A stretch of DNA of 64,000 nucleotides, from positions 186,001 through 250,000 of the forward strand of contig NZ_PJKB01000002.1 in NCBI RefSeq assembly GCF_002884975.1. Direction: 5' to 3'. This document shows, piece by piece, positions 2,059 to 26,439 of the stretch (its first letter is position 1; every line of letters starts with the position of its first letter). The notes below the pieces were generated by a model. That model did not search any database. It saw nothing but the letters and a program-made list of their open reading frames with translations, and was not told where the DNA came from. This stretch comes from Akkermansia muciniphila (GTDB lineage Bacteria > Verrucomicrobiota > Verrucomicrobiia > Verrucomicrobiales > Akkermansiaceae). The position numbers were made by a program, and so were the translations under genes.

Positions 2059-3750
2059 ATGGAGTTTAATGGATCAACCTTGAAAATTTATGCAGAATGC
2101 CCGGCAAAAGGAAAGTTTGGAAGAGAGGGATTGCAAAAGAATCAAAAACGTGCATATTTGGCTCACGTGAATCTGAATTGTCCACAGTGCAAACGACATA
2201 TCAATGTTCCTTCCTCCGCGGAGGGTTCTATGGTGAATTGTAGCAAATGCGGCCATGAGTTTCTTTGCGACAGGGAAAAGCTGATCTCCAAAAAACCTTT
2301 CGCCAGGGCGAAGAAGGCCATTTCCGTCAGTACCCCCAGGGACCGGAGGGAAGTTATTCAGAGCGCTTTGATGGAGACGGGGCTGATTCAGCTGATGTGC
2401 CTTTGCGCGTCCCTGGTCATTGCCGCCGGCTGCCTCTGGCTTTTTTACAATGCGTCTTTCGAGATGGACGGAACCTCCTTCCTTTCCATGCTGCAGCAGC
2501 CCCAGCAGAAGGCGTTCGCCCTGTTTTTCGCCTGTTTGGCCGGAGGCCTGATGGCATGTGCCGGGCGGAGGCATAAAATTGTCTTCATCCTGCTGGGCCT
2601 GCTGGTCGCCGGGGGCATTGCCTCCCTGCCTTTCGTCTATCCGGTGAAACTGAACCCCTCCCTGCTTGGCGGCAGGGAAAATGCCTCCCAGCCTGAGGAG
2701 GAAGACGTCTCCGGCTTTACCAGCATGGGCTGGGAACAGGTTGCCGGTCCTGCCGCTTCCGTCCAGAATTATGGGGAAGGGGACTTGAAACCCTTGTTTG
2801 CCGCTATTGACCGCAAGGAAGACCAGGGGGTGCTGGGCGTGTGGGTGGTCGGGGTGAACGGAGCCAACCGGGACATGGTAAAGGCGTATTTGAAGAGGAT
2901 GACCCAGTCCGAGGACGAGCCCATTTTTTATGACCGCAAGGGAACAGGCGGCGGGTTGTTCGTGATTACCCCCACTCCGATTACGTTCAAGGAGTTTGTG
3001 GATGTGGCGTCCAAGATGGGGAAAGTGACCTTGCAGGACAAGGAGCGCTTTTTTGTGGAAGTAGTCCTGAACCGGGACAAGTTTGAAGCCCGTCCCGCTT
3101 CCGCCGCATTGCAGGATGAACGTCACCAGTATTTTGTGCTGGCTAATCTAAAGGAATTGTCCTGCCTGGATATCCGGCGCGTCATTGCCGCGGCCAAGCG
3201 TCTGGCGTCCGTAAAGCCTGACCGGATGCGCCCTGAAGTTTCCGCCAAGCTGGTGGAGCTTCTCCGGGAGCCGTGGGGTCGTGATGCGGAGTATGTGACC
3301 GCGCTGGCGTCAGCCCTGGTGGTGTGGGGGCGTCCGGAGGATGCGGAGGCCCAGCGCGTGGTTTATTATGTAGCCACGGAGTTGAAGAAGGCGGATTGTG
3401 AGATTCCGGCTTCCCTGGTCAGGTTTTTGCTGCACGGTCCGGAAAAGAAGAATTTTGCGCTGCTTCTGGATGAGTGGAAAAAGGACCCGCAGAAGTGGGA
3501 GGAGGAGTGCGTGGCGGCAGGCCCCACGGGGGAAGCGGACATCATCCGCTTGATGAATGAGTCCGATGATTTTGTGCTGAAGCGCTCCGCCGCCCGAATT
3601 CTGGGAGAAATCGGTTCGGAAGCTTCCCTTTCTGCGCTCAAGGCCTTCACCAGGGATACGGACAATGAATTGCGCCTGTGCGCGGAGTTGTCCGTGAACC
3701 TGATTGAAAAGCGTCTGGGGATAGACTCTTCCGCCAGGTCCTCTCAATAA
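2059..3750 (+). CDS. Zinc-ribbon, membrane and HEAT-repeat protein of unknown function
   Basis: Function not recognised. From the chosen start (563 aa) there is a zinc-ribbon-like knuckle pair, CPQC at 41-44 and CSKC at 61-64. Three hydrophobic segments follow between about residues 110 and 200 (LMCLCASLVIAAGCLWLF; FALFFACLAGGLMACAG; VFILLGLLVAGGIASL). A soluble region follows, ending with a HEAT-like helical repeat (RSAARILGEIGSEASLSALKAFT) near residue 520. This suggests a membrane-anchored scaffold with a small cytoplasmic zinc module. The start is uncertain: ATG 2059 has GGAGGGAG 12 nt upstream, while ATG 2017 has GGAG immediately before it. It is monocistronic, with a candidate promoter at 1961-1989 and a weak terminator at 3801-3826. 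Confidence 0.75.
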   Translation: MEFNGSTLKIYAECPAKGKFGREGLQKNQKRAYLAHVNLNCPQCKRHINVPSSAEGSMVNCSKCGHEFLCDREKLISKKPFARAKKAISVSTPRDRREVIQSALMETGLIQLMCLCASLVIAAGCLWLFYNASFEMDGTSFLSMLQQPQQKAFALFFACLAGGLMACAGRRHKIVFILLGLLVAGGIASLPFVYPVKLNPSLLGGRENASQPEEEDVSGFTSMGWEQVAGPAASVQNYGEGDLKPLFAAIDRKEDQGVLGVWVVGVNGANRDMVKAYLKRMTQSEDEPIFYDRKGTGGGLFVITPTPITFKEFVDVASKMGKVTLQDKERFFVEVVLNRDKFEARPASAALQDERHQYFVLANLKELSCLDIRRVIAAAKRLASVKPDRMRPEVSAKLVELLREPWGRDAEYVTALASALVVWGRPEDAEAQRVVYYVATELKKADCEIPASLVRFLLHGPEKKNFALLLDEWKKDPQKWEEECVAAGPTGEADIIRLMNESDDFVLKRSAARILGEIGSEASLSALKAFTRDTDNELRLCAELSVNLIEKRLGIDSSARSSQ

Positions 3751-23625: not shown

Positions 23626-24405
23626 TCAGACAGAAATAATCTCGTCCTCGCCAAGTTCTTTTTTGAAATCAGCGGGGGCATGGAAAGTTTGTTTCGGGCT
23701 TTTACTGGATTCATCGATGAACATATAATTATTGGAACTTTCGTCTTTAGCTAGTTTCCAATATTTATTCGGGAGGTTGATGTGATTTGATTTTTTTAAT
23801 TCTTGAAAATATTTATATATTTCATTGTTTGATTCATTTATTTTTAATATTTTATAAAAATCTATAGGATCGATTTTTGATAGAGTGTTAAGTCCTATTT
23901 TAATACATTCAATAATTTTATTTTGAATGATGGGATCATCAAAACTGATGATAGGATCATAATAATTTATTAATGGCTCATGGACAACTCTGCCTCTGGA
24001 TATATGAGAACCTAATTTAGATGATAGTTCAAAAAGAACGCAGTTCTCTTTTGAGTCATGGCAAATGTCTGAATATCCCTTTTCCCCTGATATTTTTTCC
24101 TTAATACTTTCAAACATGTCTTCAGGCTGAGTATCAGATTTATAATCTAAATTATATCTCTTGTTAAGAAAACTTATTTTCTCATTGAGTTGTTTGGAAT
24201 GTAAACCACCGTCTAATTCTTTCGCTATATTTTGTGGTAATGTACATCTGAATATATTCGTGTCGCATGCTCCGATGCCAGGACCTCCCCTATGTACAAG
24301 TCTAATTCTTCCATTTTTATAATAGATACTGCCGATTTTATTATATTCATCCATAGTGACAAATTGGAATGGCCCATAATTTTTATAATCAAATGTATAG
24401 CTCAT
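23626..24405 (-). CDS. AT-rich gene of unknown function, probably acquired
   Basis: A 259-residue soluble protein with no signal peptide, membrane segment or recognised family. It opens SYTFDYKNYGPFQFVTMDEYNKIGSIYYKNGRIRLVHRGG, has a central Lys/Asp/Ser-rich part (KEKISGEKGYSDICHD), an Ile/Asn-rich helical stretch (IIQNKIIECIKIGLNTLSKIDPIDFYKIL) and an acidic C terminus. The many AAA, AAT, ATT and TTA codons contrast sharply with the GC-rich codons of every neighbour, which implies recent transfer. It lies alone between the M28 peptidase and cdaA, with no visible transposase, integrase or repeats. It could be a defence, toxin or mobile-element cargo gene, but the sequence gives no direct sign. 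Confidence 0.7.
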   Translation of the reverse strand: MSYTFDYKNYGPFQFVTMDEYNKIGSIYYKNGRIRLVHRGGPGIGACDTNIFRCTLPQNIAKELDGGLHSKQLNEKISFLNKRYNLDYKSDTQPEDMFESIKEKISGEKGYSDICHDSKENCVLFELSSKLGSHISRGRVVHEPLINYYDPIISFDDPIIQNKIIECIKIGLNTLSKIDPIDFYKILKINESNNEIYKYFQELKKSNHINLPNKYWKLAKDESSNNYMFIDESSKSPKQTFHAPADFKKELGEDEIISV

Positions 24406-24825: not shown

Positions 24826-24854
24826 TTGCAATCATGCGGGTTGTTGTGTAGCTT
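24826..24854 (+). promoter_or_regulatory. Promoter of cdaA (leaderless type)
   Basis: TTGCAA, 17 nt, TAGCTT, 7 nt, ATG (24862). It helps choose 24862 over ATG 24877 and an upstream TTG. Confidence 0.55.
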
Positions 24855-24861
24855 GTTGCGC

Positions 24862-25653
24862 ATGTGGGACTGGATTATGATCAAGGATGCGCTCCGGGCG
24901 ATCGTTGAAATTTTCATCCTGTGGGTATTCCTGTACCAGATTTACCGCGCTTTCCACGCGACGCGCGGCGCGCGCATCATGGTGGGGCTGTTCGCCTGTT
25001 TCCTGGCCCTGGTGGTGCTGGCTTTTTTCTTCCAGTTAAACGTGATTTCATGGATACTGACGCGCATTTTCGCCCCCGGCCTGGCGCTGGCGCTGGTGGT
25101 GATTTTCCAGCCGGAGCTGCGCGTGGGGCTGGCGAAGCTGGGCAGTCATCCGTTTTTCTCCTCCTTCGCCAAACTCCAGCGGGTGGACTTCCTGGACAAT
25201 TTCTGCAAGGCGGTGAGCAAGCTTTCCAACCAGCGGTTCGGCGCCCTGTTCGCCTTTGAGCGGAGCATCAGCATGAAGCCCATTGAGGATTCCGGCGTGA
25301 AGCTGGACGCCATTTTTTCTCCTGAACTGGCCCTGACGATTTTCCATACCAAGACTGCCCTGCATGACGGGGGCGTGGTGATTTCCGGCGACCGCATTTC
25401 CGCCGCCGCCTGCGTGTTCCCGGTCTCCCAGAAGGAGATGAGCGACCGCACCCTGGGGCTGCGCCACCGGGCGGGCGTGGGCATGTCGGAGGAGAGCGAC
25501 TGCGTGGTAGTGGTGGTGTCCGAGGAAACGGGGGCGATCGCCCTGGCCGTGGGCGGCAAGCTGGAACGCAACCTCACGCCGGAACAGTTGAAGGGCCGTC
25601 TTGAAGAACTGCTGAATATTTCTTCTTCCAATGAAAAAACTGCTATTGCTTAA
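24862..25653 (+). CDS. cdaA: Membrane diadenylate cyclase (c-di-AMP synthase), CdaA type
   Basis: Makes cyclic di-AMP from two ATP. The 263-residue product has three N-terminal membrane helices (IVEIFILWVFLYQIY; IMVGLFACFLALVVLAFFFQL; FAPGLALALVVIFQ). The linker ELRVGLAKLGSHPFF and the DAC domain follow (NQRFGALFAFERSISMKPI onward). The two catalytic motifs are present: LHDGGVVI at about 166-173 and LGLRHRAGVGMSEESD, with RHR at 201-203. The usual DGA is DGG here (169-171). The promoter pattern and the CdaA-like N-terminal spacing favour ATG 24862. The next gene overlaps by 23 nt and encodes a CdaR-like membrane stub. Confidence 0.94.
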   Translation: MWDWIMIKDALRAIVEIFILWVFLYQIYRAFHATRGARIMVGLFACFLALVVLAFFFQLNVISWILTRIFAPGLALALVVIFQPELRVGLAKLGSHPFFSSFAKLQRVDFLDNFCKAVSKLSNQRFGALFAFERSISMKPIEDSGVKLDAIFSPELALTIFHTKTALHDGGVVISGDRISAAACVFPVSQKEMSDRTLGLRHRAGVGMSEESDCVVVVVSEETGAIALAVGGKLERNLTPEQLKGRLEELLNISSSNEKTAIA

Positions 25654-25783
25654 TTGGCCGGCCAAGCTGTTCTGCCTGGTGCTGGCCGTGATCATCTGGT
25701 CTTTTATCAATCACTGGGTGACGACTCCCGACGGCGTGTCCACACGGGGGCAGCTTGAGGAGATTAGAAGGTCCCATCCCTGA
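25631..25783 (+). CDS. 50-residue CdaR-like membrane protein lacking YbbR domains
   Basis: This short frame overlaps the last 23 nt of cdaA (ATG inside SSNEKTAIA) and ends at TGA 25781-25783. It encodes a Lys-rich start, the phrase NWPAKLFCLVLAVIIWSFIN (one transmembrane helix, residues 8-27) and a polar tail rich in Arg and Glu. The pattern NW-x-x-K followed by a Leu/Ala-rich helix ending in W is typical of the N terminus of CdaR/YbbR proteins, the regulators encoded after cdaA in Firmicutes. Those continue with several extracytoplasmic YbbR domains, which are absent here. It is either a minimal CdaA partner or a decayed cdaR. bioD starts 15 nt downstream. The assignment rests on position and the short motif. 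Confidence 0.65.
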   Translation: MKKLLLLNWPAKLFCLVLAVIIWSFINHWVTTPDGVSTRGQLEEIRRSHP

Positions 25784-25797
25784 AATTGAATATTGAT

Positions 25798-26439
25798 ATG
25801 AGGAATTTCATTGTTACCGGAACGGATACGGAAGTCGGCAAGACTTACGTGAGCTGCCTGATTGTCAAGGCGCTGAGAGAGAAGGGCATTAATGCCGCGG
25901 GGTTCAAGCCCGTGGCCTGCGGAGACAGGCAGGACGCGCGCCATTTGCGTGAAGCCGGACCGGATGGACTGACGCTGGACCAGCTGAATCCCGTTTTCCT
26001 GAAGAATGCCACGTGTCCTTATGTGGCCGCACGGCTGGAGAATACGCAGGTGGATGAAGAGGCCATCCGCCGCGGTTATGACGCCCTGGCCGCCGTTCAT
26101 GAATGCGTGCTGGTGGAAGGGGTAGGCGGCTGGGAAGTACCCATCGGGCCCGGACGGAATTTCAGCGACCTGGCGGCGGATTACAGGCTGCCCGTCCTGC
26201 TGGTGATCGGCAACAAGCTGGGCGCCATTAATCATGCCCTGCTGACGCTGAATGCGATCAAGGCGCGCGGCCTGGAGTGCCTGGGCATTGTGTTTAATAA
26301 CGTGAAGGATGAGTGGGATACCGCCTGCGTGACGAACAGAAGCATGGTGGAGGAGTTTTCCGACGCGCCCATTCTTGGGGAACTGATCCATGGGCAGGAT
26401 TTCATGGATATTGACGCCCTTCTGGAACGCCTGCGCTGA
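25798..26439 (+). CDS. bioD: Dethiobiotin synthetase
   Basis: ATP-dependent closure of the ureido ring of dethiobiotin, the penultimate step of biotin synthesis. The 213-residue product has the P-loop FIVTGTDTEVGKTYVSC, AGFKPVACGDRQDA, EGVGGWEVPI and NKLGAINHALLTLNAI, all typical of BioD. ATG 25798 is used; an in-frame TTG at 25786 is possible. It lies 14 nt after the CdaR-like stub and probably belongs to the cdaA transcript. Other bio genes are not in view, so this is a detached biotin gene. Confidence 0.95.
   Translation: MRNFIVTGTDTEVGKTYVSCLIVKALREKGINAAGFKPVACGDRQDARHLREAGPDGLTLDQLNPVFLKNATCPYVAARLENTQVDEEAIRRGYDALAAVHECVLVEGVGGWEVPIGPGRNFSDLAADYRLPVLLVIGNKLGAINHALLTLNAIKARGLECLGIVFNNVKDEWDTACVTNRSMVEEFSDAPILGELIHGQDFMDIDALLERLR

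Follow-up and report, generated by a model that had tools for sequence, protein, structure and literature searches.

What is the frame of only 50 codons that overlaps the end of the diadenylate cyclase gene cdaA in Akkermansia muciniphila? In the stretch of 64,000 nucleotides analysed here (the window), cdaA (24877-25653, forward strand; 258 amino acids from the ATG at 24877) runs into a short frame at 25631-25783 on the same strand, which starts with ATG, ends with TGA and encodes the protein MKKLLLLNWPAKLFCLVLAVIIWSFINHWVTTPDGVSTRGQLEEIRRSHP. The cdaA stop codon occupies positions 25651-25653, so that the two frames share 23 bases (25631-25653), and 127 of the 150 coding bases of the short frame lie outside cdaA. 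CdaR (YbbR) is the regulator of CdaA/DacA in Firmicutes and has also been named in Borrelia, Leptospira and Porphyromonas. A preliminary description of the locus had claimed that the short frame encodes only the CdaR/YbbR anchor motif and a short tail, all YbbR domains being absent, and had offered two readings: a minimal regulator made of one helix, or a decayed cdaR. The frame is present with the start, stop and overlap described, and its product, here called mini-CdaR, does consist of a CdaR-type N-terminal anchor helix and a short tail, with zero Pfam matches.

The product of cdaA matches PF02457 (DAC; E 1.6e-36) and PF19293 (the CdaA_N membrane domain; E 7.3e-9) and resembles solved CdaA/DacA structures, including the 292-amino-acid chain of 9g69; a TTG at 24826, upstream of the ATG, is a possible alternative start. 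The usual cyclase motif has DGA at the position where the cdaA product of the window has DGG (25366-25377; LHDGGVVISG), a variant common to the aligned relatives, and the RHR motif is intact. Upstream of cdaA, close relatives carry unrelated genes, such as the frame of 259 amino acids at 23626-24405 (reverse strand) in the window and that of 327 amino acids at 2744-3727 (reverse strand) in the relative locus L031, and no confident Pfam match was obtained for either product; this place is a variable cargo site. Downstream, mini-CdaR is followed by bioD (25798-26439, forward strand), which encodes a dethiobiotin synthetase-type AAA_26 protein (PF13500, E 7.5e-40) and stands in place of glmM.

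The short frame is a real gene. A profile built from 33 relatives of mini-CdaR gave a single match in the window's genome, exactly at mini-CdaR (E 9e-17), and matches in 172 of the 285 genomes of the class, one per genome. A short frame with the same helix motif was found at the same place in all of the first 39 relative loci, once reversed loci and one fusion had been sorted out. When nine closely related Akkermansia loci were compared in pairs, dN was 0 every time for codons 9-32, outside the overlap with cdaA, at dS values of about 0.13 to 0.95, and it was at most 0.08 over the whole non-overlapping part of the gene; dS was comparable to that of cdaA or higher. The amino acid changes in the Akkermansia proteins gather in the spacer that joins the helix to the C-terminal end. 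Because the helix is free of amino acid change at dS values of up to 0.95 and the frame is conserved across the class, we regard the gene as real and not decayed. The preliminary description had named conservation of the frame with few nonsynonymous changes as support for a functional gene, and had held that loss of the frame in close relatives, or full-length YbbR proteins in relatives beside a recent truncation here, would speak against it. The frame is kept in both close and distant relatives, and full-length YbbR proteins were seen only in other families and classes. Judged by these comparisons, the one-helix state in Akkermansia is not a recent truncation.

The nature of the gene product can be approached from its helix. 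AlphaFold2 predicted a helix at residues 9-30 (pLDDT 85-90 per block), and this prediction, residue conservation and the dN of zero in codons 9-32 together delimit a putative transmembrane helix at codons 9-30 (25655-25720, forward strand). This single membrane helix carries the CdaR anchor motif N-W-x-x-K-x(6)-A-x(3)-W, and its conserved stripe is formed by N8, K12, S/C15, A19, W23 and I/V26. On the helix, the conserved residues cluster on a single face (permutation p about 0.005, in a register chosen partly by the same residues), and the conserved columns obtained by register-based scoring agree with an independent, plain MAFFT alignment of 96 mini proteins and 66 YbbR-bearing proteins. The columns common to the two groups in this alignment are K (99% of the minis and 100% of the YbbR-bearing proteins), A (97 and 94%), W (94 and 98%) and N (82 and 67%), with leucines at two further common positions. 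The N-terminus of Bacillus subtilis CdaR scored 20.6 bits against the mini profile, which is a lead and not a test. The short tail ends in the motif IRRSHP (codons 45-50; 25763-25780, forward strand), which is kept within the genus as IRRSHP or IRxSxPE and is probably located in the periplasm. The tail EW-IRxS of the minis in family f19 (L114 and L115) resembles the EW..IRxSxPE of the genus Akkermansia, and the two families are distant.

The anchor thus stands alone in this genome. No match to PF07949 (YbbR) was obtained in the whole Akkermansia assembly of 2.9 Mb, which rules out a YbbR gene elsewhere in the genome, and mini-CdaR itself matched no Pfam or NCBIfam family. Searches with the mini proteins returned scattered family names at E values of 0.02 to 0.7, with one to three members per name, and these were dismissed as chance. 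A search of the PDB yielded no solved CdaR anchor. Lacking PF07949, mini-CdaR is not to be classed as a YbbR-domain protein. It is better described as a putative variant that keeps only the anchor in the place of CdaR, and its mode of action is plausibly that of the CdaR anchor.

The order of genes also points to CdaR. The arrangement cdaA-cdaR-glmM is known from Firmicutes (PMC8573169, PMC8316131, PMC10243994), and the next gene begins with a GlmM signature in 46 of the 96 mini loci and in 38 YbbR-bearing loci. This signature is short; adjacent glmM genes were confirmed with TIGR01455 in several of these genomes. Since glmM comes next in these 46 loci, the mini gene is taken to occupy the cdaR slot of the cdaA-cdaR-glmM operon. 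Taken together, glmM synteny and the anchor residues held in common with real YbbR proteins support the identification of mini-CdaR, which is a CdaR by the descent of its anchor. A bioD signature follows 29 of the 96 mini loci, and in the window the order is cdaA, mini-CdaR and bioD, with glmM not next. No GlmM scored above the NCBIfam cut-off in the window's genome or in 35 of the 36 other genomes of the genus that were searched. As bioD is next and GlmM is absent above the cut-off in Akkermansia, the mini gene appears to have outlived its glmM neighbour. The Akkermansia genomes contained only a distant phosphohexomutase-like match, in a frame of 650-690 amino acids.

Across the phylum, we assigned states to 168 loci around cdaA, the categories (mini, one, two or about three YbbR domains) resting on the length that follows the anchor; among eight sampled long forms, seven matched PF07949 and one did not. 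An anchor lies at or behind the end of cdaA in nearly all sampled relatives, and a one-helix protein directly behind or overlapping cdaA was found in 96 of the 168 loci, which belong to 24 families within the class Verrucomicrobiia and to one that lies outside. Within the class there were 89 separate mini genes, two minis fused to CdaA, 37 proteins with the length of one YbbR domain, four with that of two and two longer fusions, in addition to three loci with no recognised anchor and one that runs off its contig. Outside the class we counted 22 frames with the length of about three YbbR domains, five minis (all from one family), one fusion and one cut locus. The states thus form a graded series, from about three YbbR domains outside the class to two or one in some of its families and none in others, with little mixing of mini and YbbR states inside sampled families. 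In YbbR-bearing relatives, the frame of mini-CdaR continues into the YbbR domains.

Full-length CdaR exists outside the class, in other phyla as well, and from this we infer that the direction of change was loss of YbbR domains. A quick tree of the cyclase, which carries long-branch warnings and gives no direction, implies at least four changes between the mini and the YbbR state and places 76 minis, Akkermansia included, in one large group; the long branches allow no more than a rough count of the independent losses.

The start of mini-CdaR overlaps the end of cdaA, which suggests translational coupling, and the anchor starts before the cdaA stop codon in 74 of the 94 separate mini genes at the sampled loci. 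In families f14, f23, f31 and f45 (L106-L109, L121-L124, L134 and L151-L155), the mini gene overlaps the 3' end of cdaA by more than 100 bases, and a C-terminal extension of CdaA and the mini helix share the same DNA in two frames. The helix is joined to CdaA in two other loci, one from another family of the order (L012, CdaA frame 1498-2475) and one from the same genus (L071), where it forms the C-terminus of CdaA, after a linker; the L071 fusion ends with the same IRRSHP as mini-CdaR of the window. As each of the two fusions was seen in one assembly only, either might be the product of a frameshift error. Longer single-chain fusions of the cyclase with a YbbR-type segment, apart from these helix-only ones, occur in family f17 (L187 and L208) and family f65 (L175).

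Conservation and codon-level selection show mini-CdaR to be a protein-coding gene linked to cdaA throughout a class, one that selection has maintained over a very long period. The explanation that we consider likely is that it represents a minimal CdaR, that is, an orthologue, by its position and the sequence of its anchor, of the N-terminal membrane anchor of CdaR/YbbR proteins, which has lost all extracytoplasmic YbbR domains, docks on the membrane domain of CdaA and sets its activity or assembly. The protein would be co-translated with CdaA through the overlapping start and inserted in the membrane with its N-terminus inside, where the conserved face of the helix (N8, K12, S/C15, A19, W23, I/V26) may pack against the membrane helices of CdaA, a contact for which the natural fusions are indirect evidence. 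It could then serve as a small built-in subunit that governs how stable or active the cyclase is or how it oligomerises, and the short outside tail might bind a partner or only fix the topology. Full-length CdaR contacts CdaA via the transmembrane domains (PMC10243994, PMC8573169, PMC8316131), and it alters cyclase output in a direction that differs between species and conditions (PMC9259658, PMC8573169); how it acts on CdaA has been described as unclear (PMC8573169). By analogy with this work, we infer that mini-CdaR would bind and regulate CdaA. Mini-CdaR lacks the YbbR domains, to which sensing is usually ascribed, and so need not be a regulator in the ordinary sense.

Several other explanations can be thought of. 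According to the second reading of the preliminary description, the gene would be a truncated remnant of cdaR under no selection, as the loss of YbbR domains that relatives outside the order still carry might suggest. However, a dN of zero for the helix where dS reaches 0.95, the near-uniformity of the mini state in those sampled families where it occurs, the conservation of K, A and W across 96 minis and the natural fusions to CdaA all argue against decay, which we consider highly improbable; a pseudogene was rejected, as neither relaxed selection nor a disrupted frame was seen in a gene with a dN of zero in its helix that is conserved over 25 families. The reading as a minimal one-helix regulator therefore stands, backed by conservation, glmM synteny and anchor residues and with regulation carried over from full-length CdaR, and the reading as a decayed gene is abandoned. 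It is harder still to credit that the open frame is conserved only as a side effect of cdaA or of signals serving the next gene. The 23 bases inside cdaA would speak for this, but the 127 coding bases outside are under codon-level constraint, and YbbR-bearing relatives extend the same frame into YbbR domains.

More deserving of thought is a purely structural role, in which mini-CdaR would be a detached fourth helix of CdaA needed for folding, stability or oligomers and would sense no signal. This account overlaps with that of a minimal CdaR, from which it departs only by allowing no tuning; it draws on the overlapping genes, the two fusions to the end of CdaA, the one-sided conservation of the helix and the want of an extracytoplasmic domain. 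It is less easily reconciled with the tail motif conserved in the genus, which suggests that the outside part does something, or with the effect of full-length CdaR on cyclase output, varying in sign with species and conditions (PMC9259658, PMC8573169), and we hold it to be possible and rather doubtful. Mini-CdaR might instead bind another membrane or envelope partner, for example via the IRRSHP tail, and share only an operon with cdaA. The tail is indeed conserved within the genus while the spacer varies, but it is the helix and not the tail that is conserved across the class, and fusions and synteny point to CdaA, which makes such a partner unlikely.

Nature seems to have carried out a domain-deletion experiment on CdaR repeatedly. 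To judge from the sampled loci, the helix, rather than the YbbR part, is what evolution kept, and its retention through repeated loss of YbbR domains suggests that it forms the minimal working unit of CdaR. A broader idea, to which we give somewhat less than even credence, is that CdaR works through its helix alone in all lineages and that the YbbR domains are an accessory lost several times; in Akkermansia, mini-CdaR would then also work without the inhibitor GlmM. A system of 50 residues, natural single-chain fusions included, is offered for solving the membrane contact between CdaA and CdaR, and the c-di-AMP signalling genes of Akkermansia, a much-studied gut genus, gain a member that annotation can easily miss because of its small size. 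We found no earlier report of a one-helix CdaR in the freely accessible literature searched, and a paper examined for a link between Akkermansia c-di-AMP and CdaR had no more than a mention in its reference list.

Like CdaR in Firmicutes, mini-CdaR is encoded directly behind cdaA, has one N-terminal helix with the same motif and is followed by glmM in many relatives, whereas known CdaR proteins have three or four YbbR domains outside the membrane (PMC10243994) and mini-CdaR has none. Some streptococci fuse the two proteins into what have been described as large CdaA-CdaR proteins (PMC10243994); the L012 and L071 fusions likewise join the membrane part of CdaR and CdaA in one chain, but add only the helix and a short tail. 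The one- and two-domain YbbR proteins of other Verrucomicrobiia families share the locus and the anchor residues with mini-CdaR and differ in the one or two YbbR domains that follow the anchor. Small single-helix subunits of membrane enzymes exist in general, and mini-CdaR resembles them in having about 50 residues, in being essentially one helix and in being encoded with its likely partner. Unlike these subunits, it would derive by domain loss from a larger regulator that survives at full length in relatives.
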